Shown here: in pieces, positions 1,287 to 13,203 of the stretch
Layout of the letters: every line of letters starts with the position of its first letter
Position numbering within the stretch: position 1 is the first letter of the stretch
DNA from: a virus
DNA: 34,693 nt
Strand: one strand, 5' to 3'
Virus record (IMG/VR): IMGVR_UViG_3300030104_005879
Location: 1-34,693 of that record
Position numbers and translations under genes: made by a program
The notes under the pieces: generated by a model
Told to the model about the DNA's origin: nothing
Database searches by the model: none
Seen by the model: the letters and a program-made list of their open reading frames with translations, nothing else

Positions 1287-1396
1287 AATTTTTTTTAAAA
1301 AAGTTATTGAAATAATAGGATATATAAAATAAATGTTTTATAATTGTGTATACTTAATAATTAAATATACAAATAACAATTAAAAAAATCAAAATT
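1287..1396. promoter_or_regulatory. Divergent intergenic region, probable promoters for amidase (-) and early genes (+)
   Basis: This 110-base, very AT-rich gap separates the amidase gene from the rightward early genes, so both must be started here unless transcription reads in from elsewhere. TATAATTG at 1339-1346 is a loose match to the Bacteroidetes -7 element TAnnTTTG, but the nearest TTG upstream (1307-1309) is 29 bases away, longer than usual. The stretch before the start at 1397 (AAAAAAATCAAA) resembles the A-rich leaders before other genes here. The position, rather than a clear consensus, supports the call. Confidence 0.4.
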
Positions 1397-1717
1397 ATGG
1401 CAACTGCAAAAAAAACTTATTGGACAATAGTATTAAAACCACAAATTGAAGCAACATTAAATAAAATGGATGCTCCTAAAGAATGGAAAAAAGGAATGCT
1501 TAAATTACAAAAAGGATTAAACACAGCAAGAAATATTGTAGCTTCAAAGGGATGGCAAGCAGGTATAGAATCAATGGATAAGTATTATAAATTATGTAGG
1601 TTTTTAGGAATGCCTGACGTGGTAATTGGCAAAAGTCCAAATGATAAATATTGGAGAAAATATGCAGAATTGGAAGGCTATGTGTATAGATGGAATATTG
1701 GTGATGCTTTATGTTAA
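1397..1717 (+). CDS. Hypothetical protein, 106 aa
   Basis: The product is not recognised. It is a basic, soluble protein with many lysines and tryptophans (KKTYWTIVLKP, EWKKGMLKLQKG, GWQAGIESMDKYYKL), predicted mainly helical and without a signal peptide or membrane segment. It is the first gene rightward from the divergent region beside the amidase and has a typical A-rich leader. Being first in the early block makes a host-takeover or DNA-binding role possible, but that is only inferred from position. Confidence 0.7.
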   Translation: MATAKKTYWTIVLKPQIEATLNKMDAPKEWKKGMLKLQKGLNTARNIVASKGWQAGIESMDKYYKLCRFLGMPDVVIGKSPNDKYWRKYAELEGYVYRWNIGDALC

Positions 1718-1753
1718 AACTCCTATTTTTTCAAACAACAAAAACAAATCAAA

Positions 1754-2083
1754 ATGAAATCTAAAGTATTTAAAATTGCACACGCAGTAAAAACTGAATT
1801 TAGCACATGGTCTGAAGCATTAAAATTTGCTTGGACTAAAGTCAAACTTCAAAGAAGTCTTAAGGAATTACCTGTTGATATAGAAAAACAAGAAGGAGGA
1901 TTATTCTTTATCTTTAAGAAAAAATCTACAGGAGAAAACAGATTAGCACAAGGAACATTGAACCTTGAAACAGAATATACTCCTTCAGCACCTAAAAAAA
2001 TCAACTATTTTATACAGAAGTTTTTTGACGTTAAAAAAAGAGCCTGGAGATCTTTGGATGTTAGAACACTAATTGAATATTAA
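1754..2083 (+). CDS. SH3-barrel (WYL_2/DUF2693-like) protein, 109 aa
   Basis: The N-terminal part (FKIAHAVKTEF.TWSEALKFAWTKVKL, about residues 6-33) matches a pattern I know from small Bacteroidetes and phage proteins, a histidine followed by S-x-ALK-x-AW-x-x-K. The C-terminal half (INYFIQKFFDVKKRAWRSLDVRTLIEY) resembles the Sm/SH3-like barrel of the WYL_2 (DUF2693) family. Such domains are thought to bind nucleic acids or ligands, but the role in phages is not settled. The start is preceded by the recurrent CAAACAAC leader, and a strong terminator follows 6 bases after the stop. The assignment is from memory of the family pattern and should be confirmed by profile search. Confidence 0.55.
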   Translation: MKSKVFKIAHAVKTEFSTWSEALKFAWTKVKLQRSLKELPVDIEKQEGGLFFIFKKKSTGENRLAQGTLNLETEYTPSAPKKINYFIQKFFDVKKRAWRSLDVRTLIEY

Positions 2084-2089
2084 TCATAA

Positions 2090-2137
2090 AAGGTTAGGAG
2101 CAATGTTTATATGCATAGCTTCTGACCTTATTTTTTT
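2090..2137 (+). terminator. Rho-independent terminator after the first early genes
   Basis: A 12-bp stem (AAGGTTAGGAGC at 2090-2101 with GCTTCTGACCTT at 2118-2129, two G-U pairs) is followed by a run of seven T at 2131-2137. The 16-base loop is long and may fold further. It closes the 1397-2083 transcription unit; genes beyond would need read-through or their own start. Confidence 0.75.
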
Positions 2138-2158
2138 AAGCACATAAATAATAAAAAA

Positions 2159-2410
2159 ATGAGTGAAAAAGTAACAGTTTATATAAGTGAATGGAGTGAT
2201 GAAAAACTAAAAAATGAATTAAAAATTGAATTAGATTATCAAAAAGATTTAAGCTATTTTTTTTCATTTATTGATAAAGCATTAAAAGATAAATTTAACA
2301 TTAGCTTTGAATATTTGATGGAACATGCTGATGCTAATGCTCAACATATTATAGCAATAGATGAAGAACTAAAATCAAGATCAAATTATTATCCAAACAA
2401 CTTAAATTAA
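2159..2410 (+). CDS. Hypothetical acidic protein, 83 aa
   Basis: This gene follows directly after the terminator at 2090-2137. The product is not recognised. It is soluble, predicted mostly helical, and contains KNELKIELDYQKDLSYFFSF and a C-terminal segment rich in A, D and E. The stop is 4 bases before the next start, so the two are likely co-translated. No motif indicates a function. Confidence 0.65.
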   Translation: MSEKVTVYISEWSDEKLKNELKIELDYQKDLSYFFSFIDKALKDKFNISFEYLMEHADANAQHIIAIDEELKSRSNYYPNNLN

Positions 2411-2414
2411 AATT

Positions 2415-2792
2415 ATGCCTATCAAAAAATTATTTTCAAAGGATCAAGAATTAAGAATTAATGCTTTAGCTAATGCTCAAAAAGAACAAGAAGCATTAGA
2501 AAAAGAAGTAGAAAAATTAAAACAACAAAACACTAATATGCAGTACAATATTGAAATTTACGTTGATGGTAAAAAAGCAAAATATGGACATTTTTTCAAT
2601 TTAGATATTGAAGAAGCAGCAGATGAACTTATACAATATGATTACTTTTCTGAAAAATATACATTGGAAGAATTGGAATTTCTTTTAGAAGTTGGTTTTA
2701 CTGATTGTTCACCATATTTATATTTAGGATGTTCATTGCTTAACTTTAAGGTTACAAGATGGAACAAAGAACTTTATAAAGATATGATATGA
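2415..2792 (+). CDS. Hypothetical protein with N-terminal coiled coil, 125 aa
   Basis: Residues of about 10-45 form a heptad-like coiled coil (LANAQKEQEALEKEVEKLKQQN), followed by a compact acidic domain containing a tyrosine-rich patch (CSPYLYLGCS). There is no signal peptide. It lies in a chain of short early genes with 4-base gaps or overlaps: the next ORF starts at 2789 inside its stop codon. The family is not recognised. Confidence 0.65.
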   Translation: MPIKKLFSKDQELRINALANAQKEQEALEKEVEKLKQQNTNMQYNIEIYVDGKKAKYGHFFNLDIEEAADELIQYDYFSEKYTLEELEFLLEVGFTDCSPYLYLGCSLLNFKVTRWNKELYKDMI

Positions 2793-2923
2793 AAAAGAAA
2801 AAATTTAAAGCAGGTGATACTATCACTTGGGAAGTAAAGTATAAAAAAATTTATATAACTAAAGCAATAGAAAAAAATGAAATCAAAAGAAATTTATATG
2901 TGCCAAGTGCAAATCAAAGATAG
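2789..2923 (+). CDS. Short basic hypothetical protein, 44 aa
   Basis: The ATG at 2789 overlaps the stop of the preceding gene (ATGA), the standard coupling pattern in this block. The frame encodes a lysine-rich peptide beginning MKKKKFKAGDTITWEVKYKK, reminiscent of a small beta-barrel, and ends in TAG at 2921-2923. It overlaps the following gene in another frame by up to 47 bases, which lowers confidence. If that gene starts at its next Met (2898), the overlap shrinks to 26 bases. Confidence 0.45.
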   Translation: MKKKKFKAGDTITWEVKYKKIYITKAIEKNEIKRNLYVPSANQR

Positions 2924-3083
2924 AGGAGTAACATTCCCTTTAAGTAAAGCCATAGAAGTGCATGAACCAGTTCAATTGAATGTACAAAAGTTTTTAAAAA
3001 ACAATTGTCATGCTATGGATTTAAGCAAATATTTTGAATTTGAAATATTAAATAAAAAATTAATAGGTTATGGCAATGTATAA
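2877..3083 (+). CDS. Hypothetical protein, 68 aa
   Basis: The product has no recognised family. It contains two cysteines and a short beta-rich stretch (YMCQVQIKDRGVTFPLSKAIEVHEPVQLNVQKFL). The start is uncertain: ATG at 2877 gives a 47-base overlap with the previous ORF, while ATG at 2898 (MCQVQIKDRG) gives a smaller one. It belongs to the dense early gene chain; the next small ORF starts inside its 3' end. Confidence 0.5.
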   Translation: MKSKEIYMCQVQIKDRGVTFPLSKAIEVHEPVQLNVQKFLKNNCHAMDLSKYFEFEILNKKLIGYGNV

Positions 3084-3171
3084 GAAATTTTGTAAAAGAT
3101 GGAATCTAAAACCTAATAGATATTCTTCATTAAAAACTTATAAAACATGGTTAAAATACTTAAAATATTGA
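3076..3171 (+). CDS. Possible 31-aa basic peptide
   Basis: This short ORF overlaps the end of the 2877-3083 gene and the first 25 bases of the glucosaminidase gene. The peptide is strongly basic and aromatic (MYKKFCKRWNLKPNRYSSLK). Such an ORF could arise by chance in AT-rich DNA. Its tight stop-start overlap matches the local gene style, which is the only support. Confidence 0.3.
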   Translation: MYKKFCKRWNLKPNRYSSLKTYKTWLKYLKY

Positions 3172-3857
3172 TAGTGCTTATAGGAGTTATTTTACTAAGC
3201 ACAAACAATATAAAACAAGAAGAAGTGATATATGCAGGAAGGTTTGAACCTGCTGCAGTAGAACAAAAGTATAATATGCTTGGATTACCTTCTAATAGAT
3301 TATGGATGTCACAATCAGAATGGAAAGGTGAGCAAATCACAAACAAGCTAATTAAATACAGATTTAAGGCTTGGAAAAAAATCCATATAGAAGAATGGGT
3401 TAACCATATGATCCAAGAAGCAAAGAAAGAATCTAAAGTATTTCCTGATATACCTTATCAGCTTTATGTGGCACAGGCTATTCTTGAATCTAATTATGGT
3501 TTGAGTAAATTGGCTAATGATGGTAATAATTTATATGGTCATAAATATAGAGGACAATCTGAAGGCTTTTTAGTGATGGCTGATGATAGTCCAACAGATA
3601 AATTTACTAAGTTTAAAAGCCAATGGTATTCTTTAAGGTCACATTCTTATCTGCTTATGAACAAATATAGGAAAAGGATTAAAGCAAAAAATCCTACTCT
3701 GCAGGATTGGTATAAAGCACTTTGTGGAGCAACCAATATTCAAGGAAGTAGAAGATGGGTAAGCAGGGGTAATTCTGTTTATGCAACTTCATGTTTCAAT
3801 GGCACTTGCTATATTGATAAATTGAAATCTATTATAAAAAAATATAAATTGAAATAA
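3147..3857 (+). CDS. Glucosaminidase-family peptidoglycan hydrolase with N-terminal membrane anchor or signal
   Basis: The 236-aa product begins with a short hydrophobic segment (residues 4-18, ILKILIVLIGVILLS), probably a signal peptide or signal anchor. The mature part carries the FlgJ/Glucosaminidase (PF01832) pattern: AQAILESNYGLSKLA with probable catalytic E114, then NNLYGHK at 128-133, and a later DWYKALCGATNIQGSRRWVS region. Enzymes of this family cut the glycan strand of peptidoglycan at N-acetylglucosamine. With its own export signal it can reach the cell wall without a holin, unlike the amidase. It lies among early genes, far from the lysis cassette, so it might act in lysis, in superinfection exclusion or as a virion-associated enzyme; context alone cannot decide. 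Confidence 0.85.
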   Translation: MVKILKILIVLIGVILLSTNNIKQEEVIYAGRFEPAAVEQKYNMLGLPSNRLWMSQSEWKGEQITNKLIKYRFKAWKKIHIEEWVNHMIQEAKKESKVFPDIPYQLYVAQAILESNYGLSKLANDGNNLYGHKYRGQSEGFLVMADDSPTDKFTKFKSQWYSLRSHSYLLMNKYRKRIKAKNPTLQDWYKALCGATNIQGSRRWVSRGNSVYATSCFNGTCYIDKLKSIIKKYKLK

Positions 3858-3858
3858 A

Positions 3859-4098
3859 ATGAATGGATTAGAAAAAAAACAGTTTGAATTTAGAATTAAA
3901 AAAAAGAATAAAGAATTAAAAGAATTTCAAGAGTTAATAAGATTTAGAAATTTAGAAATAAGATCATTAAAGCAACAGCTTAATTCTAGTAATTCTAAAT
4001 TAGAAACATGTAAAAATAAAATACAAACTTATAAAGATAAGATTGTAAATTTAGAAACTAATTATAAAAAATTGATACAATACAAAAGAAATAATTAA
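3859..4098 (+). CDS. Coiled-coil hypothetical protein, 79 aa
   Basis: Almost the whole product is one charged heptad-repeat helix (KKKNKELKEFQELI, LEIRSLKQQLNSSNSKLETC). It starts one base after the glucosaminidase stop codon, so the two are probably co-translated. There is no membrane segment. Its function is unknown. Confidence 0.6.
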   Translation: MNGLEKKQFEFRIKKKNKELKEFQELIRFRNLEIRSLKQQLNSSNSKLETCKNKIQTYKDKIVNLETNYKKLIQYKRNN

Positions 4099-4115
4099 TA
4101 TAAAAAACTAAAAAA

Positions 4116-4394
4116 ATGGACATTAATAACAGGCAAAAGATTAAAAATCTTATCTTAGAATATATTGAAAGGGAAAAGATCACTACTTACATCCTGCAAA
4201 AAGCAGAAGCAAATTTTAAAGTATATCCTTTAGGAGTATCTTTTATTACTATAAATAGGATTTTAAACAACAAAAAATATATTCCCAGTCCTAGAACATT
4301 GATTAAGATTTTTGATGTAATAGGAGTAGAATATACTTTTGATTATGGCATACTAAATTTTGAATATAAACTTGAAAACAACTATTCTTATTAA
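4116..4394 (+). CDS. Small helix-turn-helix DNA-binding protein, 92 aa
   Basis: Residues of about 20-70 resemble an XRE/Cro-type helix-turn-helix: helices ILEYIEREKITTYILQKA and GVSFITINRILNNKKYIPSPRTLIKIFDVIGV, the second carrying the recognition-helix pattern that ends in a ...P...TL..I...IGV segment. This fits a phage transcription regulator acting on early or replication promoters. It overlaps the next gene by 35 bases. There is no adjacent integrase or divergent repressor partner, so a lysogeny switch is not indicated. Confidence 0.6.
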   Translation: MDINNRQKIKNLILEYIEREKITTYILQKAEANFKVYPLGVSFITINRILNNKKYIPSPRTLIKIFDVIGVEYTFDYGILNFEYKLENNYSY

Positions 4395-4725
4395 AGGTAT
4401 TGTTCATGGAATGAATGGTAAGCATGGATTAATTAGGGAACACTTTAGAACAGCTAAAAGGAAGAAGGAATTGTATAAGGTGTTAATTAAAAGCCAAACA
4501 AAAAATGAGCACAAAGGCAAAGTTAAAATCAGATACATAGGTTATAAATCTATACTTATGGATTGGGATAACTTTGCTGCTTCATTTAAGCACTTAGGTG
4601 ATGCTCTAGTAAGCTGTAAGGTGATAGTTGATGATAAGCCTGCTATAGTCCAGGAGTTTATTCCTGAACAGATAAAATGCAAAAGAAAGGATCAAAGAGT
4701 AATAATTATTATTGAAGATTGTTAA
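4360..4725 (+). CDS. RusA-like Holliday junction resolvase, 121 aa
   Basis: The key segment is LMDWDNFAASFKHLGDALVSCKVIVDDKPAI: D68 and D70 with N71, K77, D81 and the pair D91-D92, the arrangement of metal-binding acidic residues in RusA endodeoxyribonucleases. The length (about 120 aa) is normal for the family. The N-terminal strand LKTTILIKGIVHGMNG fits the family's opening strand and glycine-rich turn, so the upstream ATG at 4360, overlapping the previous gene by 35 bases, is preferred over the Met at 4411. RusA dimers cut four-way junctions, resolving recombination and branched replication intermediates before packaging. It sits next to the ERF/exonuclease module, which suits this role. 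Confidence 0.7.
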   Translation: MNINLKTTILIKGIVHGMNGKHGLIREHFRTAKRKKELYKVLIKSQTKNEHKGKVKIRYIGYKSILMDWDNFAASFKHLGDALVSCKVIVDDKPAIVQEFIPEQIKCKRKDQRVIIIIEDC

Positions 4726-4792
4726 TTATTCAAAATAATTTCTTATATTGCAGATGATATAAGGCTAATCTATAAGGCATACTAAGTGTTTG

Positions 4793-4830
4793 AACCTTGT
4801 TAAGTTTTTTAACTTTTCAAGGTTTTTTTT
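4793..4830 (+). terminator. Rho-independent terminator ending the first early block
   Basis: AACCTTG at 4793-4799 pairs with CAAGGTT near 4818-4824, with GTTAA/TTAAC extending the stem inside, followed by eight T. The 257-base gap from 4726 to 4982 otherwise contains no gene that I can see, only this terminator, poly-A/T tracts and the likely promoter for the recombination operon. Confidence 0.75.
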
Positions 4831-4888
4831 ATGAAATTTTGTTAAAAAACAGAGAAATTTGCACTTTTTTTAAAAAAAAACAATAAAA

Positions 4889-4931
4889 TTTGCTTCAAAT
4901 GTTGTGTATATTAAAACTTTGTTTTATATTG
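4889..4931 (+). promoter_or_regulatory. Candidate promoter for the recombination operon
   Basis: TTTG at 4889-4892 and AAACTTTG at 4914-4921 (21 bases between them) approximate the Bacteroidetes -33 TTTG and -7 TAnnTTTG elements with one mismatch. A second overlapping option is TTG at 4902-4904 with TATATTGT at 4925-4932. Being downstream of a terminator and 50-90 bases before the start at 4983 makes a promoter necessary here; which option is used is uncertain. Confidence 0.4.
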
Positions 4932-4982
4932 TGATATCATTAGTTAATTACTTATTTAAACAAACAACAAAAAAATCAAATC

Positions 4983-5303
4983 ATGATTAAAGATATTAAA
5001 AATTCAATAGTAGTAAATATAGAGCATTGTGGAGATGGGTTAATATATGAATTGCAATTTTTAGAAAATGATACCTATCAGCAGTTCCATTTATTATATG
5101 ATGCTTTATGTAATTATTATCCTGAAGATTTTGATCTTTCTCTACTAGCTTATGAATCTTTTGATGATTTAAGCTATAAGATAGAAACTTTAATAGAAAA
5201 TGAAGAAATGGAGTTTTATCTCTTTGATGGTATAGATGTTTATCATATAGATGAATCTGATAAATTCAATAAAAATTGTTATACTAATCCTAAATTTATG
5301 TAG
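4983..5303 (+). CDS. Acidic hypothetical protein, 106 aa
   Basis: The product is strongly acidic (DALCNYYPEDFDLSLLAYESFDDLSYKIETLIENEEMEFYLFDG) and predicted soluble. Small, highly acidic early phage proteins are often DNA mimics or inhibitors of host nucleases or RNA polymerase, but nothing here beyond charge supports that. The start is preceded by the canonical ACAAACAACAA leader (4960-4970). It lies upstream of the ERF gene with 57 bases between. Confidence 0.65.
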   Translation: MIKDIKNSIVVNIEHCGDGLIYELQFLENDTYQQFHLLYDALCNYYPEDFDLSLLAYESFDDLSYKIETLIENEEMEFYLFDGIDVYHIDESDKFNKNCYTNPKFM

Positions 5304-5360
5304 ATGAAAAAAAGGTTATATTTATAAAAAATTCTTTAAATAATTTAAAACACAAACAAC

Positions 5361-5963
5361 ATGAATGTGATACACTTAAGTCCTCAAATGTGGCAAACTG
5401 AAGAAATTTCAGAACTGGCTAAAGCATTAATAAACTTTGGCAAAGACTTCCAAAAAGCATCACTTAAGAAAGATGCTCAAAACCAATATCTGAAGAACCA
5501 ATATATTACTTTAGATAACTTATTAAATACCTGCAGACCATTGCTTACAAAACATAATTTAATAGTAACACAGGAGTTAGCAGGTGAGTATATTGTTACT
5601 ACTCTTTACCATGAATCAGGTCAATTTAAAGGATCAGCTATGATCTTTAATCCAATGGCAGGTAATAAAAGCACTAACAACCTTCAAGCTATTGGAGGAG
5701 GAATTACATATGCTAAAAGGTATGCGTTAGGTGCTCTTTTATGTATTTCTACAGATGTAGATGATGATGGTAATTCTACTCCTGATACATCTTTTAAAAA
5801 ACAAAAAAAAAGTGATCTTCCTGTAGGCTTGTATGAACATGCTGCAAAAGCTTATATTAGAGATGGGAATCTGAATAGTGTAAAAAATAAATATACTGTA
5901 TCAAAATCTGCTGAAAAAGTAATTCTTAACAATGCTAATAACTTAGAAAAAATTAATGAGTAA
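5361..5963 (+). CDS. erf: ERF-family single-strand annealing protein
   Basis: The 200-aa product shows the ERF superfamily core: ELAKALINFGKDFQKASLKK near the N-terminus, the NQYITLDNLLNTCRPLLTKHNLIVTQ segment, and the signature QAIGGGITYAKRYALGALLCI (109-129) followed by the acidic VDDDGN. ERF proteins coat single strands and anneal complementary DNA, driving phage recombination and circularisation. The next gene, overlapping by 8 bases, encodes an exonuclease that would make the single strands, the usual annealing protein/exonuclease pair. The ATG is immediately preceded by ACACAAACAAC. Confidence 0.9.
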   Translation: MNVIHLSPQMWQTEEISELAKALINFGKDFQKASLKKDAQNQYLKNQYITLDNLLNTCRPLLTKHNLIVTQELAGEYIVTTLYHESGQFKGSAMIFNPMAGNKSTNNLQAIGGGITYAKRYALGALLCISTDVDDDGNSTPDTSFKKQKKSDLPVGLYEHAAKAYIRDGNLNSVKNKYTVSKSAEKVILNNANNLEKINE

Positions 5964-6609
5964 TTGGCTAAATATTGAACAAAATACACCTGAATGGCTT
6001 AATATACGTTCAGGTGTATTTACTTCTTCTAATATCTACAATTTGTTTGTAAGTGCTAAAAAAGGAGATGAGTTCAGCAAATCAGCACATACCTATATAA
6101 AGCAAAAAGCAATTGAAACTATTTACCCATTTGAGTTAGATAATTCTTTTTCAGGTAAAGCAATTCAATGGGGGAATGATTATGAGCAGGATGCTGTGAA
6201 AGTTTATGAAGTTACTACAGGAAGCAATGTGACAAATGGAGGGTTTTTTGTATTTGATGAATATACTGGTTCATCTCCTGATGGACTTGTAGATACAGAT
6301 GGACAAATAGAAATTAAATGTCCATATGTTAAGGTCAATCATTTAAACAATGTTTTATACTTAAATGATGATGTGGATTTATATAAAAAGTCTAAGCAGT
6401 ATTATTATCAGGTACATCATCAATTATATTGTAGTGGAAGGGATTATGTAGACTTTATGAGTTTTGACCCTAGACTTCTATCCTCTAAAAATTTTCTTCA
6501 TGTAATAAGAATAGAAAGAAATCAGGAACTGATGGAGCAAATGGCAGAAGTGATATATAAAGCAGGGAAGGAAAAAGATAAAATCATAGAGCAGTTTCTA
6601 AACAGATAA
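5956..6609 (+). CDS. YqaJ-type (lambda exonuclease family) recombination exonuclease
   Basis: The 217-aa product has the YqaJ fold markers: QNTPEWLNIRSGVFTSSNIYNLF at the N-terminus, GKAIQWGNDYEQDA with E77, GSSPDGLVDTDGQIEIKCP giving the PD-(D/E)XK core D109, E119 and K121, and the YYYQVHHQLYCSG segment near 149-160. Such enzymes digest one strand of duplex ends 5' to 3', leaving single-stranded DNA for the neighbouring ERF protein. The 8-base overlap with that gene suggests translational coupling. The stop codon runs straight into the bipartite repeat at 6609. Confidence 0.9.
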   Translation: MSNWLNIEQNTPEWLNIRSGVFTSSNIYNLFVSAKKGDEFSKSAHTYIKQKAIETIYPFELDNSFSGKAIQWGNDYEQDAVKVYEVTTGSNVTNGGFFVFDEYTGSSPDGLVDTDGQIEIKCPYVKVNHLNNVLYLNDDVDLYKKSKQYYYQVHHQLYCSGRDYVDFMSFDPRLLSSKNFLHVIRIERNQELMEQMAEVIYKAGKEKDKIIEQFLNR

Positions 6610-6652
6610 CTCTATATATTAAGCTGTTTCTATTGACATTTTTTGTCAAATT
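6609..6652 (+). promoter_or_regulatory. Bipartite repeat, copy 1 (upstream of methyltransferase)
   Basis: ACTCTATATA (6609-6618), 12 unrelated bases, then a 22-base block containing the inverted repeat TTGACATTTTTTGTCAA (6633-6649). The same two blocks with exactly the same 12-base spacing recur at 8221-8264, right after the methyltransferase gene. The palindrome (6-bp arms, T-rich centre) looks like a protein-binding site. Here no clear TAnnTTTG follows at the right distance, so this copy may be an operator or a divergent promoter type. The start at 6679 follows 26 bases later with an AACAACAAAAAAC leader. Confidence 0.6.
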
Positions 6653-6678
6653 ATATACAATAAAAAACAACAAAAAAC

Positions 6679-8220
6679 ATGAATGTATTAAGCCTTTTTG
6701 ATGGTATGAGCTGTGGTCAATTAGCATTGAATAGATTAGGAATTAAGGTAGATAACTACTTTGCTTCAGAGATAGATAAATATGCTATACAAGTTACCAA
6801 AGCAAATTATCCAAACACTAAACATATAGGAAGTGTAGTAGATGTTAAAGCTGCAGACCTTCCTAAAATTCATTTATTAATAGGTGGTAGTCCTTGCCAA
6901 TCATTTAGCTTTGCAGGTAAGCGCAAAGGAATGAGTACAAAGTGCAATCAGGAAATACTTACTTTGGAGCATTATTTACAACTTAAAACTGATGGCTTTG
7001 AGTTTGAAGGTCAATCTTATTTATTTTGGGAATATATGAGATTGCTAAAGGAAACTAAACCTAAATACTTTTTATTGGAAAATGTTATGATGGGAGATAA
7101 ATGGCAAAAAGTACTATCTAAAACTATAGGCATTGATCCCATTATGATTAATTCATCTTTACTATCTGCCCAAAATAGAAAGAGATTGTACTGGACTAAT
7201 ATAGGCACTAATAAAAATAATCTATTTGGAATAGAGCAACCAGGAATAAAGCAACCAAAGGATAAAGGTATTTTGTTAAAGGATGTTTTGGAAAGTGATG
7301 TAGAGCAAAAGTATTTTTTAAGTGATAATGCTATTAAAACTGTTGCAAGAAGTAAACATGGTAAACAATGTTTGAATTTAAATAAAAAATCTATATGTTT
7401 AGTAGCAGTTTATTATAAACAAGGTAGAGATAAACAATATATAAATACCCAAAAAATTTTGGGGGCAGGTTGTAGAATGGATGATAATTATATAAATACA
7501 AGTTTACTTAAAAGTAAAAATATAAATTCTATCCCAAAAAACACAAAAAATTATTTAGAAGTAAAAAGGAAAGTAAAGGTCAGAAAAAATAAAGTAGATA
7601 TAAAAGCCTTACAAAAGCTATTAAAAAAACATAAAAAAAGTACTTACAAAAAAATTTCTGAAGATTTAAATGTTAATTTAACTATTGTAGAACATTGGTT
7701 CAGAACAGATAAGTATTTTTCTATTCCAGATCCTGATATATGGCTAAAATTAAAAGAATATTTAAACATAGATATAAATGATTTTGATAATAGCATAATG
7801 GAATTTATAGAAAAAGATGGTAATTTTGACCAATCAAACAGAGTATATACTACAGCAAATAAAAGTCCATGTTTAACTTCTGCAAAAAAAGATAATTGTA
7901 TTTTTGTTCCTGAAAACACTAAAAAAGGATTTGCAGAAATAGAAGATGGTCAATGCTTTGATGCTACACAACCTAACTATAAAACTAGGAGAGGCAGTAA
8001 GATGGATAAAAAAACTAACTGCTTAACTACTACTACACCTGAATTTTATTTATATAAAAATGCTAAAATAAGAAGATTAACACCTATAGAATGTGAAAGG
8101 CTTCAAACTGTACCTGATAACTATACTAATCATGTTTCAGATTCTCAAAGATATAAAATGTTAGGTAATGGATGGACTATAGATGTAATAGCTTATATAT
8201 TAAAGCATATGAATTTATAA
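6679..8220 (+). CDS. DNA cytosine-C5 methyltransferase
   Basis: All main C5-methylase motifs are visible in the 513-aa product: motif I FDGMSCG (7-13), motif IV GGSPCQSF with catalytic C73, motif VI LLENV (E135), motif VIII QNRKR (165-169), motif IX RRLTPIECERLQ (465-476) and motif X MLGNGWTIDVI (494-504). Between VIII and IX lies a long target-recognition region (about 190-460). It contains a helix-turn-helix-like insert (308-345, KKISEDLNVNLTIVEHWFRTD) and two similar blocks (NRVYTTANKSPCLT and KMDKKTNCLTTTTP). The enzyme transfers a methyl group from S-adenosylmethionine to cytosine, probably shielding phage DNA from host restriction. No restriction partner is nearby. It is framed by two copies of a 44-base bipartite repeat, which suggests separate regulation or later acquisition. 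Its recognition site cannot be read from sequence. Confidence 0.93.
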   Translation: MNVLSLFDGMSCGQLALNRLGIKVDNYFASEIDKYAIQVTKANYPNTKHIGSVVDVKAADLPKIHLLIGGSPCQSFSFAGKRKGMSTKCNQEILTLEHYLQLKTDGFEFEGQSYLFWEYMRLLKETKPKYFLLENVMMGDKWQKVLSKTIGIDPIMINSSLLSAQNRKRLYWTNIGTNKNNLFGIEQPGIKQPKDKGILLKDVLESDVEQKYFLSDNAIKTVARSKHGKQCLNLNKKSICLVAVYYKQGRDKQYINTQKILGAGCRMDDNYINTSLLKSKNINSIPKNTKNYLEVKRKVKVRKNKVDIKALQKLLKKHKKSTYKKISEDLNVNLTIVEHWFRTDKYFSIPDPDIWLKLKEYLNIDINDFDNSIMEFIEKDGNFDQSNRVYTTANKSPCLTSAKKDNCIFVPENTKKGFAEIEDGQCFDATQPNYKTRRGSKMDKKTNCLTTTTPEFYLYKNAKIRRLTPIECERLQTVPDNYTNHVSDSQRYKMLGNGWTIDVIAYILKHMNL

Positions 8221-8264
8221 ACTCTATATAGCAAGGTGGATTTATTGACATTTTTTGTCAAATT
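8221..8264 (+). promoter_or_regulatory. Bipartite repeat, copy 2 (upstream of replication operon)
   Basis: This is the same ACTCTATATA (8221-8230), 12-base spacer and TTGACATTTTTTGTCAA palindrome (8245-8261) as at 6609-6652. It starts immediately after the stop codon of the methyltransferase gene. The right arm of the palindrome overlaps the TTG of the predicted promoter at 8255, so a bound protein would be well placed to repress or activate the replication genes. Confidence 0.6.
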
Positions 8265-8286
8265 TACTATAAAATAATTATATTTG
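8255..8286 (+). promoter_or_regulatory. Bacteroidetes-type promoter for the replication operon
   Basis: TTG (8255-8257), 21 bases, then TATATTTG (8279-8286) exactly fits the flavobacterial/Bacteroidetes consensus TTG-N17-23-TAnnTTTG. Initiation would fall around 8293, giving a short leader that begins near the ACAAACAACA element before the ATG at 8311. This is the best promoter match in the window. Confidence 0.6.
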
Positions 8287-8310
8287 TAAGACAAACAACA
8301 AAACACTAAT

Positions 8311-9102
8311 ATGCAAAATCCTAACTATTATTCTATTATACCTGCTGAAGTAAGATATGATAAAAACTTAGTACCTAATGCTAAGCTATTATATGCTGAA
8401 ATTACAGCACTTCTCAATATCAATGGCCATTGCTTTGCTTCCAACAGATACTTTGCTAATTTATACAATAAAAGCACTATAACCATTTCAAGGTGGATAA
8501 GCCAATTAAAGAAATTAGGTTATATAGATACACATATACAATATAAAAAAGGCACAAAACAAATTGAAAGTAGAAGTATTACCCTATCAAAAAAAATGAT
8601 AATACCTATTAACAAAAATAATAATAGGGGTATTAACAAAAATGTTAAGGATAATATTAATAATACTAAAGTATTATATAATAATATTAATAAAAATAAT
8701 AAAAAAGGAAAAAAACAATTTGATATTCATCTTTGCACTTTTCCTGATATATTCCAAAAAAATGTTAAATTGAAAAAGGTGTTTTTTGAATTTGTAGAAA
8801 TGAGAAAAGAATTAAAAAAGCCTTTAAAAACTAAAAAAGGAGTAGAAACTAAATTAAGATCACTAGCAAGGGATTGTGAAAAATATGGAACTGATATAGT
8901 AATTGGTGCTATATACCAATCAATAGAAAATGAGTATAAAGGTATTTTTGTCAAGTCTTATGCTAAAAACAACAAACAACATGAACAATCAACTAATGAC
9001 AAAGGAAGCATCTATGAAAATTATGCAAAGATGCTCTATGCAGACACAATGCAGAACAAAGGAAATTCAGACCATTGTGCAGGGGAAGAATGCCAATTTT
9101 AG
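8311..9102 (+). CDS. Replication initiator with N-terminal winged helix (HTH_36-like)
   Basis: The 263-aa product begins with a HTH_36-type winged helix: YYSIIPAEVRYDKNLVPNAKLLYAEITALLN, then FASNRYFANLYNKSTITISRWISQLKKLGYI (about 5-75). A low-complexity linker rich in N, K and I (about 90-135) joins it to a C-terminal helical domain ending in SLARDCEKYGTDIVIGAIYQSIENEYKGIFVKSYAK, a pattern of DnaD/replisome-organiser-like proteins. The layout resembles lambda O-type initiators, which bind an origin inside their own gene and recruit the helicase. The linker-coding DNA here holds repeats and a palindrome. It follows the best promoter in the window and overlaps the next gene by 122 bases. Confidence 0.75.
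   Translation: MQNPNYYSIIPAEVRYDKNLVPNAKLLYAEITALLNINGHCFASNRYFANLYNKSTITISRWISQLKKLGYIDTHIQYKKGTKQIESRSITLSKKMIIPINKNNNRGINKNVKDNINNTKVLYNNINKNNKKGKKQFDIHLCTFPDIFQKNVKLKKVFFEFVEMRKELKKPLKTKKGVETKLRSLARDCEKYGTDIVIGAIYQSIENEYKGIFVKSYAKNNKQHEQSTNDKGSIYENYAKMLYADTMQNKGNSDHCAGEECQF
8607..8700 (+). other. Candidate replication origin inside the initiator gene
   Basis: The segment is nearly pure A/T and contains a 13-base direct repeat TATTAACAAAAAT at 8607-8619 and 8631-8643, a perfect hairpin ATAATACT-AA-AGTATTAT at 8660-8677, and the repeat ATAATATTAATAA flanking it at 8651-8663 and 8681-8693. Iterons plus an AT-rich unwinding region within the initiator's linker-coding region match the lambda O/ori layout. 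Low-complexity asparagine/lysine coding could produce some repetition by itself, so this is a candidate only. Confidence 0.5.
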
Positions 9103-9862
9103 AAGTGTATTAAAATCTAATAATGAGCAACAGATACAACAGCAATTCAATAAACTTTGTTTAAGTATTTTATTTTTAGCCAATACATACACAGGAGCAA
9201 AATTCCAAAATCCTCCAAGTGAAGATGATAAAAACACTTTAAGAAGTTGTGCTAAATTTATTATAGATATGTTTCCACAGCTTGGACAATGTGAACTGGA
9301 GTTAATCTTTCAATTAGCAGCAGCAGGGAAATTTAATATAAACCTAGAAACTTATTATGGGAAATTTTCAGTAAACTTTTTAGGGAAATTATTAACTAAC
9401 TATTTAACTTTTAGAAATAAAATTATTTTAACTTATGAAAAAGAGAAGGAGAAGGATCAAGCTAAAGAGCAACAGCAACAAGCTGAAGAAAAAAACCAAA
9501 GGACAAAAGAGCAAATTATTGAAAAATACAGGGTATTAAAGCAATCTTTTGAAGAATTAGGAGTATTACCTGAATTTGATGATGTGCAGTCTTTTTGGGC
9601 AAAAATTTTGATTGATGCTAATATTATACATTTTACTGAAAATGAAAAAAAATGTATATGGGAAGAAGCTAAAGCCAAAACTGAAAGGATCATAAAAAAT
9701 GAATATTGTAAAGCAAGTTTAACAGATAGAAACAAAAAAAATCTAAGAAATCTAATCAAGAAAATTTCTGAAGGAAAGCAGGACAATGATTTCAATTCAA
9801 AAGCTGTTATTGTTTATTCAAAAATGCTTATAATAAAATCCATATACAATGAAGATGATTAA
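8981..9862 (+). CDS. Probable replication accessory protein, 293 aa
   Basis: The start at 8981 is chosen because ACAAACAAC directly precedes it, as before other genes here; an in-frame ATG at 8930 lies deeper in the upstream gene and lacks this leader. The product has a helical N-terminal domain with ELELIFQLAAAGKFNINLETYYGKFSVNFLGKLLTNYLTFR (about 120-160), a charged coiled coil (EKEKEKDQAKEQQQQAEEKNQ, about 165-190) and a helical C-terminal domain. Similar ...AAAGK...Y..FS...... patterns occur in Bacteroidetes phage replication regions. By position it could be a helicase loader or primosome partner, but no Walker motif is visible. The first 122 bases overlap the initiator gene in another frame. 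Confidence 0.6.
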   Translation: MNNQLMTKEASMKIMQRCSMQTQCRTKEIQTIVQGKNANFRSVLKSNNEQQIQQQFNKLCLSILFLANTYTGAKFQNPPSEDDKNTLRSCAKFIIDMFPQLGQCELELIFQLAAAGKFNINLETYYGKFSVNFLGKLLTNYLTFRNKIILTYEKEKEKDQAKEQQQQAEEKNQRTKEQIIEKYRVLKQSFEELGVLPEFDDVQSFWAKILIDANIIHFTENEKKCIWEEAKAKTERIIKNEYCKASLTDRNKKNLRNLIKKISEGKQDNDFNSKAVIVYSKMLIIKSIYNEDD

Positions 9863-10190
9863 CTATGTATTAATTGCACAATCTACCCTTATTTTAATTC
9901 TTTTTGTTTGGTTGGTGTTATACCCTAAAAAAGAAAATGAAGTTAATTATGACAAAATAAGACAACAGAATGAGCAGATTATACAACAGCTTCAAAAACA
10001 ATTGGAGCAATTGCAAGAGCAAAGTAAAATAATAGCATTAAAATTAGATACTTTAAAAATCAAAATACCTAAAGAACAGATAAAGCTAAATGTGATAAAT
10101 GAAAAAATTAATTCTATCAAAAACAATATTCAGACTTACAATTATACTGATTCTTCTGACCAGTACCTTATCAGCAGATTGTCAAAGTAG
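9849..10190 (+). CDS. Single-pass membrane protein with coiled coil (spanin-like partner 1)
   Basis: The 113-aa product has one N-terminal membrane segment (about 6-24, VLIAQSTLILILFVWLVLY), then a positive PKK and a long glutamine-rich coiled coil (IIQQLQKQLEQLQEQSKIIALKLDTLKIK). This is the topology of inner-membrane Rz-type spanins. It overlaps both the previous gene (14 bases) and the next one (92 bases, different frame). The nested pair recalls Rz/Rz1, which link inner and outer membranes in the last step of lysis of Gram-negative cells. Its place in the replication module is unusual for a lysis gene, so the analogy is tentative. A role in anchoring the replication complex to the membrane is possible. 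Confidence 0.55.
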   Translation: MKMINYVLIAQSTLILILFVWLVLYPKKENEVNYDKIRQQNEQIIQQLQKQLEQLQEQSKIIALKLDTLKIKIPKEQIKLNVINEKINSIKNNIQTYNYTDSSDQYLISRLSK

Positions 10191-10551
10191 CACATTGTGT
10201 TTAGAAAGGTCTATACTTGAAAATGTAGCAACTAAATTAGATTCTTTTAGTGCTCTAAAAGAATTACAACCATTTTATAAAAGCAGATATAATACCTGCT
10301 TAAGTTTGAACAAAACACAAAGCCAAGTTATAGAGTATCAAAGCCAGTTATTAAAAAATAATAAAATACAAATAAGCAAATTTGAATCCATTGAAATAAA
10401 ATATCAAGAAACATTGAATTTTAATGATAAGCACCTTCAGGAGTTATTAAAGAAAAATAGAAAACAAAAAACTATTAATAGAATTACTCTAATAGGTGGA
10501 GGAGCATTAACAATAGCACTAACTACAGCACTTTTAATTTCTTTACTATAA
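10099..10551 (+). CDS. Secreted/membrane coiled-coil protein (spanin-like partner 2)
   Basis: The 150-aa product starts with a signal-peptide-like segment (residues 10-26, IFRLTIILILLTSTLSA) followed by a cysteine (DCQSS). The residue before the cysteine is Asp, so this is not a standard lipobox. The middle is a helical coiled coil with several cysteines (KSRYNTCLSLNKTQSQVIEYQSQLL), and the C-terminus has a second hydrophobic segment (about 133-150, ITLIGGGALTIALTTALLISLL). The mature part probably lies in the periplasm. Its first 92 bases lie within the preceding membrane protein gene. The C-terminal membrane segment differs from classical outer-membrane spanins, so it may instead be a unimolecular or novel type. 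Confidence 0.55.
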   Translation: MKKLILSKTIFRLTIILILLTSTLSADCQSSTLCLERSILENVATKLDSFSALKELQPFYKSRYNTCLSLNKTQSQVIEYQSQLLKNNKIQISKFESIEIKYQETLNFNDKHLQELLKKNRKQKTINRITLIGGGALTIALTTALLISLL

Positions 10552-10562
10552 AAACAAACAAC

Positions 10563-10940
10563 ATGAAACCAAATCAAGCTAATGAAGATTACATCAACAA
10601 GAAACTTATATACTGCTCTTTACTCCTGCAGGAATATGCATACATTCAACTTATAGATTCTCCTATTATTAGAGGAACTATAAAACACCAATTAAAAACC
10701 AAATTAAGATTTGTTAAAAATCAATTAGTGCAAATGGGAAATGATGCAAGGATTTCAAGAAAAGCCATACAACAAAGTGAAGATAGTGCTATAGAAAATG
10801 TAGCACTAATGGCTCAACTCCTTTCATCTTCTGCAATAATTCCACCATGTCAATGTGATTTTATAGAAGAAGAATTTCTTAAGATATGTAAAAGAGCAGT
10901 AGAAAATTTTCAAAATAAACAAGGGGAAAAGGTTATATAA
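10563..10940 (+). CDS. Helical hypothetical protein, 125 aa
   Basis: The product is soluble, predicted all-helical (LIYCSLLLQEYAYIQLIDSPIIRGTIKHQLKTKLRFVKNQLVQMG) with a PPCQC motif near residue 98. The ATG is directly preceded by AAAACAAACAAC. It lies between the membrane pair and the ssDNA-binding-like gene. The family is not recognised. Confidence 0.65.
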   Translation: MKPNQANEDYINKKLIYCSLLLQEYAYIQLIDSPIIRGTIKHQLKTKLRFVKNQLVQMGNDARISRKAIQQSEDSAIENVALMAQLLSSSAIIPPCQCDFIEEEFLKICKRAVENFQNKQGEKVI

Positions 10941-10986
10941 GCTACTTATTTTTATTATATTACAACTTTAAAAAAAGAATGAAAAA

Positions 10987-11322
10987 ATGGATGAACTAAA
11001 AATTAAAGGGAAAATTATCAAGAAATTTGATAAAAAAGTATTTGAATCAGGCTATCAGGTTTTAGAATTTGTAATAGAAACTGAAGATAAATATCCTCAA
11101 AAAGTTAAAATGCAAGTAACAAAAGATAAAGTTACTTTGATGGAAGAAATTCCAATAGGCACAAGCATGGTGTTTTCTTTTAATATACGTGGTAGGGAAT
11201 GGGTTAATGATAAAAAAGAAACTCATTACTTTGTTTCTCTTGATGTATGGAGAACAGAAAATTTAGAAGTGGATTTAGAGCCTTCTGATACCCATAGCAC
11301 AGAAGATTCACTTCCATTTTAA
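10987..11322 (+). CDS. DUF3127-like OB-fold protein, probable ssDNA-binding protein
   Basis: The 111-aa product matches the DUF3127 pattern: an opening strand LKIKGKIIKKFDKKVFESGYQVLEFVIET, then EDKYPQKVKMQVTKDKV, then the diagnostic FNIRGREWVND...YFVSLDVWRTE, and an acidic tail ending DSLPF. The DLPF/SLPF ending is typical of single-strand binding proteins and DUF3127 members and usually contacts partner proteins. The family is largely found in Bacteroidetes and its phages. It would cover single strands during replication and ERF-driven recombination. A terminator starts 12 bases after the stop. Confidence 0.8.
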   Translation: MDELKIKGKIIKKFDKKVFESGYQVLEFVIETEDKYPQKVKMQVTKDKVTLMEEIPIGTSMVFSFNIRGREWVNDKKETHYFVSLDVWRTENLEVDLEPSDTHSTEDSLPF

Positions 11323-11333
11323 AACCTTACTAC

Positions 11334-11363
11334 AGAAGGAGATTTTGTCTCCTTCTTTTTTTT
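11334..11363 (+). terminator. Rho-independent terminator after the replication operon
   Basis: AGAAGGAGA (11334-11342) pairs perfectly over nine bases with TCTCCTTCT (11348-11356) across a five-base loop and is followed by a run of eight T. It closes the 8311-11322 unit. Confidence 0.88.
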
Positions 11364-11366
11364 ATT

Positions 11367-11537
11367 ATGACAGATAAACAAAAAATAATAAGACTTCAAT
11401 TTGAAAATAAAGTTTTAAAACAGGCTTTAAAAGATATAAAAAAACAAATATCTAATGTTGAAGATTTGACAGCAACAAAAGCTGTTGTATATGCTAATAT
11501 TAAAAATCCTTATAGTGAAGGAAGAAACTATTATTAA
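11367..11537 (+). CDS. Short coiled-coil hypothetical protein, 56 aa
   Basis: The frame from ATG 11367 to TAA 11535-11537 encodes MTDKQKIIRLQFENKVLKQA followed by a short helix and a C-terminal NPYSEGRNYY. The heptad-like N-terminal half and the fit in an otherwise empty gap of 230 bases between two clear genes support it. It starts only 3 bases after the terminator T-run, so it must be read by transcripts passing the terminator, or be expressed weakly. Its function is unknown. Confidence 0.55.
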   Translation: MTDKQKIIRLQFENKVLKQALKDIKKQISNVEDLTATKAVVYANIKNPYSEGRNYY

Positions 11538-11552
11538 CTATGAAAAAAAACA

Positions 11553-11996
11553 ATGTTAATTTATATAAATTCACAGCAGAAGATTCCTGTAGGTGCAAAG
11601 ATAACAATTCCTCCAATGATGATTTTATTCCAGGAATTAATTCATGCAGTAGTGGACATTCAATTGGATAAAAAGCAAAAAAAGAAAAATATCACATACA
11701 TGGGGATTATTGATGAACCAATACATGATCCTTTAGTAGCTGAACAAATTTGTAATGTATATATACCTGACAAAAAAGAATTATATCCTTATCATAAAAC
11801 TGGAGGATTAACAGAACCTGATTTTATAGAAAAAATTACAGATATATATTCAAGCAAAGACATTTTTTTAACAGCAGACTTATTAGATCAAATAGAAAAT
11901 TTTGGTTTTAGTGGTGTATGGATTTTTGATGCTAAACAAAGACAGATAATAACACTAAAAGAGATAGATATATTAATAATAGGACAGCATAAATGA
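11553..11996 (+). CDS. Hypothetical protein, 147 aa
   Basis: The product is soluble and mixed alpha/beta, with MLIYINSQQKIPVGAKITIPPMMILFQELIHAVVDIQLDKKQKKKNITYMGIIDEP at the N-terminus. It has no signal peptide, cofactor motif or recognisable family. A shorter ORF in another frame begins at 11540 but gives an atypical 43-aa peptide. The end overlaps the next gene by four bases (ATGA type). Confidence 0.65.
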   Translation: MLIYINSQQKIPVGAKITIPPMMILFQELIHAVVDIQLDKKQKKKNITYMGIIDEPIHDPLVAEQICNVYIPDKKELYPYHKTGGLTEPDFIEKITDIYSSKDIFLTADLLDQIENFGFSGVWIFDAKQRQIITLKEIDILIIGQHK

Positions 11997-12340
11997 TGAA
12001 TAAAGACAAAAAAAGATTCTTTAAAAAAGCATATAAGTTAGCAAAAAAAGTAAAAAAAGTCTTAAATTGCAGATGGTATAAGAAAAAGACCAATAAGCAA
12101 ATAGCATTGCTTACAGATATTTTATTCATGGATGAAGCACTAATAGACTTTTTAATATTAGACTATTTTAAAACTGAACAACAATATATAAATAGTATTA
12201 ATGCTTTTTTTGATTTAGAGGCTAAAGCATTTAATTATAATGAACAATTAATATATCAAGCAGGAAGAATGCATTCATTAACTCAAAAGGTGTATCTTCA
12301 ACATGATTATATGGAGTTTAAACTAAAAATAGGAATATAA
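11993..12340 (+). CDS. Basic hypothetical protein, 115 aa
   Basis: The first 35 residues are very basic (NKDKKRFFKKAYKLAKKVKKVLNCRWYKKK), suggesting nucleic-acid binding; the rest is acidic and helical (DEALIDFLILDYFKTEQQYINSINAFFDLEAKAF). The start overlaps the previous stop, and a second Met follows immediately. The family is not recognised. Confidence 0.6.
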   Translation: MMNKDKKRFFKKAYKLAKKVKKVLNCRWYKKKTNKQIALLTDILFMDEALIDFLILDYFKTEQQYINSINAFFDLEAKAFNYNEQLIYQAGRMHSLTQKVYLQHDYMEFKLKIGI

Positions 12341-12379
12341 GAAAAAGGGGTGATTCCCTTTGTTGTTTGTATATATGAA

Positions 12380-12408
12380 GGGAGTAGGGCAACTTACTTC
12401 CTTTTTTT
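12380..12408 (+). terminator. Rho-independent terminator with GNRA-type loop
   Basis: GGGAGTAGG (12380-12388) pairs with CTTACTTCC (12393-12401), with two G-U pairs, across a GCAA tetraloop, followed by seven T. A second small hairpin, AAAGGG/CCCTTT, lies just upstream (12344-12361). The pair ends the 11553-12340 unit and shows that the open frame running through here from 12360 is not coding. Confidence 0.75.
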
Positions 12409-12419
12409 ATTATTTAAAT

Positions 12420-12572
12420 ATGGAATTGAAAATGAATTGCAACATGGAGGAGTATAAAAAACTTTTAACTTATATTTTACTAAAAGACTTAACAGAAGAA
12501 GAAAAAAAAGAAATTGAGAAATCTATAGATTATATTTTAAATACAAAACAACAAAAAAACACTAACAAATGA
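12420..12572 (+). CDS. Acidic hypothetical protein, 50 aa
   Basis: The start is set at ATG 12420 because the longer in-frame ATG at 12360 would place the terminator inside the coding region. The product is a short helical protein (MELKMNCNMEEYKKLLTYIL, then DLTEEEKKEIEKSIDYIL). The last codons overlap the next gene start (ATGA) and also form the A-rich leader ACAAAACAACAAAAAAAC for it. Its function is unknown. Confidence 0.5.
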   Translation: MELKMNCNMEEYKKLLTYILLKDLTEEEKKEIEKSIDYILNTKQQKNTNK

Positions 12573-13063
12573 CTTATAACTCTAGCTACAAGAAAAGAAA
12601 AAAATCAGGACAAAAAGCAGAAGATTTAGCTTTTGAATTTTATAATAATATGGAAGGGTGTCACATTATACCCTTTGGTATTGAATCTATATTAGGATCA
12701 AAAACTGCTATAATTACAGAATTATTCTATCATTGTGTGCCTAATAAATTAAAATCAATGCCTGACTTTATTTTATTTTGGCAAAAAAAAGGATATAAAA
12801 AAAAGATGTGGTTTATAGAAGTTAAACTATCATCCTTTGACTTTTTAAGATTGAAATTACTAGATATTGAAACTTATAAGTATTGGAATGAAACTTTTAA
12901 TGAATCAAAGTTATTGTTTTATATACAATATGCTAATAAAAATAATTTTAAACAGGTAACATTTGATAAGTTGTTAGAATTGATCACTGCTAATAATTAT
13001 GAAATAAAAAAATATCCTGATAATAATAAGCAGTACATTGAAATACCTTACAAAGATTTTTAA
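12569..13063 (+). CDS. PD-(D/E)XK family nuclease-like protein, 164 aa
   Basis: The N-terminus (KKSGQKAEDLAFEFYNN) has a conserved-looking glutamate E18, followed later by SMPDFILFWQKKGYKKKMWFIEVKLSS. This gives P65-D66 and E84-V-K86, the classical PD...EXK catalytic core on two adjacent strands. Such enzymes include restriction-like endonucleases, junction resolvases and packaging-associated nucleases. It is the last gene before the terminase region, where many phages carry an HNH or other nuclease that aids packaging. Alternatively it could degrade host DNA. The family within the superfamily is not determined. Confidence 0.6.
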   Translation: MTYNSSYKKRKKSGQKAEDLAFEFYNNMEGCHIIPFGIESILGSKTAIITELFYHCVPNKLKSMPDFILFWQKKGYKKKMWFIEVKLSSFDFLRLKLLDIETYKYWNETFNESKLLFYIQYANKNNFKQVTFDKLLELITANNYEIKKYPDNNKQYIEIPYKDF

Positions 13064-13065
13064 TT

Positions 13066-13095
13066 ATGGGAAGAAAAACAATAGACAAAAAATAG
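13066..13095 (+). pseudogene. Truncated terminase-small-subunit-like start (9 codons)
   Basis: Directly after the nuclease stop codon, ATGGGAAGAAAAACAATAGAC encodes MGRKTIDKK and stops at 13093-13095. The true small terminase gene 138 bases downstream begins with the same ATGGGAAGAAAAA (MGRKKVNIDWKK). The shared beginning and the early stop suggest a duplicated gene start, either a remnant or a leader peptide. It is too short to be proved as either. Confidence 0.4.
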
Positions 13096-13173
13096 GTTGC
13101 ACTACAGACTAAAGTACAACCTATGTAAACAAGCGTTTTGTAAACAACCACATTAAAGATATAGTATCTTTAA
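13092..13173 (+). promoter_or_regulatory. Structured non-coding region before the late (packaging) genes
   Basis: The 140-base gap before the terminase contains a hairpin ATAGGTTG (13092-13099) / CAACCTAT (13117-13124), extended inside by ACT/AGT after one mismatch, a tandem TGTAAACAA pair (13124-13148), and a perfect inverted repeat TTAAAGATA-TAG-TATCTTTAA (13153-13173). No T-run follows the first hairpin, so it is not a simple terminator. The region could hold a late promoter with operator, a small RNA or a packaging signal near the terminase genes. Confidence 0.5.
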
Positions 13174-13203
13174 ACAAAAACAAAATATTTTAAATATTAT
13201 TTT

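Follow-up and report, generated by a model that had tools for sequence, protein, structure and literature searches.

Candidate orphan operators of an XRE controller class around a methyltransferase gene in a phage of likely Bacteroidota hosts

Introduction

What is a bipartite repeat doing on both sides of a DNA methyltransferase gene in a phage genome, and which protein could bind it? The question is raised by IMG/VR record IMGVR_UViG_3300030104_005879 (34693 bases, 29% G+C), the whole of which was analysed and is referred to below as the window. The host of the phage is likely a member of the Bacteroidota, since, when TerL is compared with phage records, most of the top matches come from phages of Bacteroides, Parabacteroides and Phocaeicola. 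In the region concerned, an ERF gene (5361-5963) and a YqaJ gene (5956-6609, stop codon TAA at 6607-6609) are followed on the plus strand by a C5 cytosine DNA methyltransferase gene (6679..8220; PF00145, 3e-46; NCBIfam dcm, 8.6e-49) and a replication initiation protein gene (8311..9102; HTH_36 and PHROG replication initiation families). The gene of an HTH_3 protein (4116..4394, plus strand; PF01381, 2.2e-05) lies upstream.

The reading that we lean towards, on sequence evidence, is that the repeat copies are candidate orphan operators of an XRE controller, bound in trans by a host protein. The components of this reading differ in strength: the repeat is very probably the operator of some regulator, there is a fair probability that this regulator is an XRE protein of the class described below, and the supply of the regulator by the host is put forward only tentatively.

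Results and Discussion

Layout and conservation of the repeat

The initial annotation had placed the repeat at 6609-6652 and 8221-8264, and both copies were confirmed there on the plus strand. Each has an upstream box, ACTCTATATA (6609..6618 in copy 1, 8221..8230 in copy 2), and an exact 22-nt block, TATTGACATTTTTTGTCAAATT (6631..6652 and 8243..8264), within which lies the palindrome TTGACATTTTTTGTCAA (6633-6649 and 8245-8261); common to the two copies are AACTCTATATA and the 22-nt block. A pattern search of the window found one palindrome of the form TTGACA-N5-TGTCAA per copy. As had been described, each copy starts at or right behind the stop codon of the upstream gene, copy 1 on the third base of the YqaJ TAA and copy 2 directly behind the methylase TAA at 8218-8220, and the window contains no third copy. 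The spacer, given earlier as 12 bases, needs a correction: the gap between box and palindrome is 14 nt, of which 12 nt contain all the differences between the copies and the last two (TA) are shared. From the end of the copy 1 palindrome to the methylase start there are 29 nt.

All six mismatches between the copies fall within the 12-nt spacer of a 45-nt block, whose remaining 11 + 22 nt are identical; the clustering has a P of about 0.002. Exact repeats of 20 or 22 nt were absent from all 60 dinucleotide shuffles of positions 751-33900, a region that itself holds two 22-nt repeat families, namely the block shared by copies 1 and 2 and a 23-nt repeat (2520-2542 = 8293-8315). When up to three mismatches are allowed, loose palindromes are at chance level in the window (29 against 30.2 expected). 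We read the copies as two conserved elements around a free spacer rather than as a fresh duplication, and such a pattern, with a diverged stretch between two conserved ones, speaks for selection on both copies. A role as terminator or hairpin was considered and rejected, the stem being weak (-5.5 kcal/mol for copy 1).

Promoters at the two copies

Bacteroidota promoters follow the consensus TTG-N17..23-TAnnTTTG. There are four matches to this consensus on the plus strand, and the sole intergenic one is at copy 2: TTG-N21-TATATTTG at 8255..8286, with the -33 TTG (8255-8257) inside the palindrome and the -7 element at 8279-8286. The first gene behind this promoter is the replication initiation gene. 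The earlier claim that copy 2 overlaps the best promoter of the window is upheld in part, by the Bacteroidota consensus but not by E. coli-type ranking, which puts copy 1 above copy 2 and finds hexamers at both; the E. coli-type scan of positions 1-14000 yielded 85 sites against a shuffle mean of 88.8, which is no excess. At copy 1, no TAnnTTTG element was present within one mismatch in a scan of 6601-6679, and in the alignment this copy lacks the 16 nt that carry the -7 element of copy 2. Without a -7 element, copy 1 does not resemble a promoter that a Bacteroidota polymerase would use; copy 2 alone does.

Relatives of the phage

Related loci were gathered for YqaJ (23), Rep (14), the methylase (80) and TerL (80). 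Among the seven close YqaJ loci (L003-L009; YqaJ identity 56-70%), none carries the repeat, the palindrome or the gene order of the window; the sequence after YqaJ differs from that of the window, and none of the seven has a methylase match. Neither the repeat nor the gene order occurs in the 21 TerL-related loci L170-L190, one of which has an unlike TTGAC-N8-GTCAA. The palindrome precedes the Rep gene in none of the 14 Rep loci, and the Rep protein itself was found in none of 22 relative records in a search run without a positive control.

Across viral contigs, the bipartite pattern had no matches. The bare 17-mer palindrome occurs in 50 viral contigs; in 13 of the 19 inspected, which were those with the match on the stored strand, it lies inside frames of at least 90 aa, and the context of the window was recognised by eye in none of the 19. 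The composite pattern of palindrome followed by a -7 element was found in 25 viral contigs, eight times outside frames of at least 90 aa, and in none of these eight cases is the pattern followed directly by an XRE gene on its own strand. Two composite-pattern contigs may be mentioned for their gene content, as judged by eye: in L252 a HigBA-like pair on the opposite strand is preceded by the palindrome at a distance of 51 nt, and in L258 the pattern is inside the open frame of an HTH-like gene.

An operator class in Bacteroidota hosts

Genome contigs were scanned with the palindrome of the phage plus a -7 element behind it as bait; this returned at least 117 stretches, 80 of which were listed and read as loci. 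Among the 80 loci listed, 37 lie outside open frames of at least 90 aa, and nine of these 37 have an XRE gene directly downstream. Seven of the nine genes code for products of roughly 348-362 aa, the exact length varying with the start codon that is assumed, and the two that were tested (L303 and L296) combine HTH_3 with Fic. The remaining two genes encode proteins of about 100 aa, and here the palindrome alone counts, as the -7 match falls inside the gene; one is directly before two Eco57I/N6 methylases (L286) and the other before genes that resemble adenine methylases by eye (L329).

To avoid the bias of a search that had started from the phage palindrome, loci were next chosen by protein similarity. 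At E <=1e-8, 44 of 296 Bacteroidota genomes contain relatives of the short controller, XRE-Fic proteins included, and at E <=1e-30 XRE-Fic relatives occur in 22 of 198 genomes, many of them matching the Fic part alone. The best matches gave 30 + 25 loci; 38 of the 55 hold an XRE part, which, minus three duplicates, left 35 upstream regions, with related genomes counted separately. The site TTGAC-N7-GTCAA was present with at most one mismatch in 21 of the 35 regions, compared to 4 of 836 control windows from the same loci, and without mismatch in 7 of 35 compared to 0 of 836. Without the ascertained locus L438, which coincides with L303, 20 of 34 regions carry the site with at most one mismatch. 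Ranked at N7 over these 34 regions, TTGAC is first of 1024 half-sites with 20, followed by TTTTT with 13; the other 59 letter permutations of the half-site reach at most 2 of 34 regions, and other spacings at most 5 of 34. As the site is carried by 20 of 34 regions chosen through their proteins, at the top of 1024 half-sites and with exact spacing, TTGAC-N7-GTCAA is likely the self-operator of a Bacteroidota XRE regulator family. A literature search, made without most subscription journals, found no paper on this operator class in Bacteroidota.

With a matrix built from 31 host sites, the phage copies rank first and second in the window (21.0 for copy 2 and 20.0 for copy 1, the next score being 12.4), where the best of 40 shuffles scored 18.8; the 31 sites had been chosen by up to two mismatches to the same pattern, so the scores lean that way. 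In 14 of 15 hand-picked host promoters the operator touches the TAnnTTTG -7 element and not the -33 element as in phage copy 2. Over the palindrome and the -7 element, copy 2 aligns with three host XRE-Fic promoters in which the operator is at -33 and the -7 element follows 17-18 nt later. This layout is rare: the composite pattern (palindrome, N14-20, -7 element) was found in 1 of 296 Bacteroidota genomes, namely the ascertained centre, and two control palindromes in the same pattern were found in 1 and 0 of 296, too few matches to compare. Of 47 host XRE genes, one has a match to the ACTCTATATA box nearby when up to one mismatch is allowed.

The genes behind the controllers point to defence. 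For short controllers of 90-120 aa that are followed within 100 nt by a frame of at least 80 aa, 21 in all, the next gene has a Pfam methylase match in 17 cases, comprising seven C5, eight N4/N6 or Eco57I/N6 and two HsdM methylases; the other four are one HsdR, one BrxA, one AAA ATPase and one gene with no match. Judged from these neighbourhoods, in which a methylase follows in 17 of 21, the short XRE family is one that heads defence operons. Among the seven loci with a C5 methylase behind the controller (L408, L409, L419, L420, L421, L428 and L433), the site is present with no more than one mismatch in just two, L408 and L409; the other five have two mismatches, three of them in the form TGGAC-N7-GTCCA.

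In viruses, XRE controllers were found in five contigs, with the exact TTGAC-N7-GTCAA in none, and in four phage records, one of which is by eye an XRE-methylase fusion (L469) with a near match, TTGCC-N7-GTCAA, upstream. The search for XRE-Fic in phages gave 32 records, none of which spans 80% of the protein.

A proposed mechanism

The idea that one regulator's site stands at both the methylase and the replication genes agrees with the match of the palindrome to the XRE operator class. Each copy would be a regulatory block in which the palindrome TTGACA-N5-TGTCAA serves as operator for a dimeric XRE regulator of the type that, in Bacteroidota, precedes restriction-modification genes or is fused to Fic. 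At copy 2, a dimer over the -33 element would shut the replication operon, as the operator covers that element of the replication promoter. Since copy 1 has no -7 element, a dimer bound there would chiefly hinder polymerases that run on from the recombination genes towards the methylase, in the manner of a roadblock. The regulator would arrive in trans, as a host defence controller, an XRE-Fic protein or the product of another element in the cell. Supply in trans appears most likely because the phage encodes no detectable XRE-family member: the family profile found none among window frames of at least 40 aa, the best score being 5.0 bits (E 0.28).

Alternative explanations

The main rival to a host or co-resident XRE source is a regulator encoded by the phage, most simply the HTH_3 protein at 4116-4394, which would set the timing of both the methylase and the replication operon. 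Phages usually encode the proteins that bind their operators, and no other stand-alone HTH regulator candidate was found among the ORFs scanned. However, its gene has no copy of the site upstream, and at 4.1 bits against the XRE-family profile the protein is not a member; its structure model is unusable (pLDDT 46.6). We regard this explanation as possible but somewhat doubtful.

It is unlikely, though not implausible, that the repeat is a by-product, left when the methylase came in as a cassette and the replication promoter was partly duplicated, with copy 1 being functionless. In this case the direct repeats would also allow loss of the gene by annealing, and the phage has recombination genes, ERF and YqaJ. 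The loss of 6609-8220 would leave YqaJ directly before an intact replication promoter, copy 1 aligns with copy 2 but for the 16 nt holding the -7 element, and a methylase match is missing from the close YqaJ loci, all of which fits an inserted gene. Neither a transposase nor terminal inverted repeats were seen in 6609-8264 by reading and in the ORF list. The confinement of the mismatches to the spacer (P about 0.002) is unlike plain decay and speaks against a functionless copy.

The initial annotation had also proposed that the methylase regulates its own gene, together with the replication operon, by binding the palindrome through a helical HTH-like insert (7570..7806, plus strand; residues about 298-376), in the manner of M.SsoII. 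The only two sites of the genome do bracket the methylase gene, and although the model of the methylase is poor (mean pLDDT 56.3), the segment of about residues 300-375 is its better predicted part, which appears helical in the model. The resemblance of the insert to XRE domains was judged by eye from the sequence and the order of helices, and the methylase scores 2.4 bits against the XRE-family profile. The insert is present in an alignment of 18 proteins, and 20 of 80 viral methylase relatives retain its EHWFR core; from this conservation we conclude that it is a feature of the enzyme family. We take it to lie between motifs VIII and IX, where C5 methylases hold target recognition. The conserved enzyme part starts at residue 4, so that the protein is without an N-terminal HTH extension. 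Upstream of the methylase gene, TTGAC-N4..10-GTCAA was found in none of the 80 viral loci, as far as these reach, be it the 20 relatives with the EHWFR core or the other 60; by eye, many of the relatives start close behind or inside the preceding gene. Because the insert belongs to the enzyme family and the relatives are without the site, autoregulation is very doubtful, even with the precedent of M.Ecl18kI, which is reported to bind an inverted repeat in its own promoter region (PMC3695355). A methylase homologue is present in 1 of 296 host genomes, as a partial match, and a fold search with the methylase model has DNMT3-type methylases among the 50 matches listed. Compared with solved structures, the insert matched only triosephosphate isomerases (best E 0.019), which was taken as chance.

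A site for a LexA-like or other host repressor of Bacteroidota, making replication inducible by DNA damage, is highly improbable: LexA-like dyads with a 5-nt gap are given in one report (CTAA-N5-TTAG, GGA-N5-TCC and TTAC-AAATT-GTAA; PMC8565304), but their half-sites are unlike TTGACA-N5-TGTCAA, whereas the XRE family fits the exact half-site and spacing.

Implications

Orphan XRE-controller operators would tie the methylase and replication switch of a phage to the regulator family of bacterial defence operons, which suggests that a host defence regulator could control a phage too. Should a host controller prove to act at the promoter of the phage, the regulation of restriction and the replication of the phage would be wired together. 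It is improbable that the phage keeps host-controller operators so that its methylase and its replication follow the restriction status of the host; if it were true, the replication operon would be held back in a cell with the controller and replication would start at once in a cell without it, so that the phage would heed, or be silenced by, the very protein that regulates the defence from which it has to escape. In addition, a defined operator of the XRE family could be used to find targets in phages, plasmids and hosts.

Comparison with known systems

The phage site resembles the C-boxes of restriction-modification controllers, both that of C.Csp231I and the GACT-AGTC class, in being an inverted repeat with a 5-nt gap, in its presumed recognition by an HTH dimer, and in its place at the promoter of, or upstream of, restriction-modification genes, here a C5 methylase. 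It differs from them in its location in a phage, in having no cognate controller gene in cis and in its half-site, TTGAC(A). Classic C-boxes hold two dimer sites, compared to one palindrome in each phage copy. C.Csp231I is reported to have the C-box CTAAG-N5-CTTAG and a length of 98 aa (PMC3115060), which is near the size of most Bacteroidota short controllers (97-107 aa). With the self-operators of the Bacteroidota short XRE and XRE-Fic genes, the phage shares both half-site and spacing, and copy 2 is like the three aligned XRE-Fic promoters in having the operator at -33 and then the -7 element; unlike in those self-operators, the gene behind the phage site is a methylase or replication gene and not the regulator.

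The promoter region of M.Ecl18kI, an enzyme almost identical to M.SsoII, is reported to contain a 15-mer inverted repeat with GGACA and TGTCC, to which the enzyme binds (PMC3695355). These enzymes and the phage methylase are alike in being C5 methylases with an HTH or HTH-like part and a GACA..TGTC palindrome at the promoter region; the HTH of M.SsoII is N-terminal, whereas the HTH-like part of the phage enzyme is internal (about 298-376) and its relatives are without the site.

Several other controllers offer partial parallels. RptR, which represses itself and is encoded first in its defence operon in Type I restriction-modification islands, is a different protein from the Bacteroidota XRE controllers and has a 6-bp site, TAGCTA (PMC12255303). 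For the candidate roadblock at copy 1, C.Kpn2I is a reported precedent of a controller that blocks elongation (PMC6237814). A precedent for a restriction-modification controller at a phage region is C.Csp231I, which binds the regulatory region of the Rac prophage and alters its expression; the report on it treats the case as adventitious cross-talk at a repressor region (PMC11014345), unlike the phage described here, in which two perfect sites are kept.

Results and Discussion

The short XRE regulators of the Bacteroidota, which are predicted to bind operators of the TTGAC-N7-GTCAA class upstream of their own genes, may also control BREX systems, since the member in L432 (a locus taken in by protein similarity) is followed directly on its 3' side by a BrxA gene. 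The site upstream of this controller has 2 mismatches to the operator. A methylase-like protein fused to an XRE domain was seen by eye in a phage-labelled faecal contig (L469, 2501-3841), and a sequence close to the operator lies upstream of the fusion. Palindromes of the TTGAC..GTCAA form were also noted by eye in viral contigs, several of them within one intergenic stretch of L256 (from 1231) and one in L252 (1977), placed 51 nt ahead of a HigBA-like pair encoded on the opposite strand.

Among viral loci carrying relatives of the methylase, L041, L089, L090 and L110 have in common, by eye, a stretch with TGTAGGAGCAA and CTCCTACTCGC, then GGTTTTTT, about 100 nt 5' of the methylase; this is perhaps a structured RNA or a terminator. 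In related viral loci with YqaJ, a hairpin-like stretch with a common TTTCATGTCGT, then a terminator-like stretch, lies 3' of that gene (L003, 2949; L004, 8108; L006, 2122). TTTCATGTCG was looked for in the window and was absent.

The two ends of the window (1-300 and 33971-34270) are 91% alike across 300 nt, and amidase-like sequence was seen by eye at both. This resembles a circularly permuted genome in which the two ends derive from two strains.

An exact 23-nt repeat (2520-2542 and 8293-8315) includes, in its second copy, the start codon of the replication initiation gene (8311-9102, plus strand) and the leader preceding it. Because the first copy holds an ATG at 2538, in frame inside the ORF at 2415-2792, a gene may start there. 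Within the replication gene, two copies of TATTAACAAAAAT spaced about 22 nt apart and then a very AT-rich tract were recognized by eye (8606-8715). This stretch is a candidate origin resembling the arrangement in lambda O.
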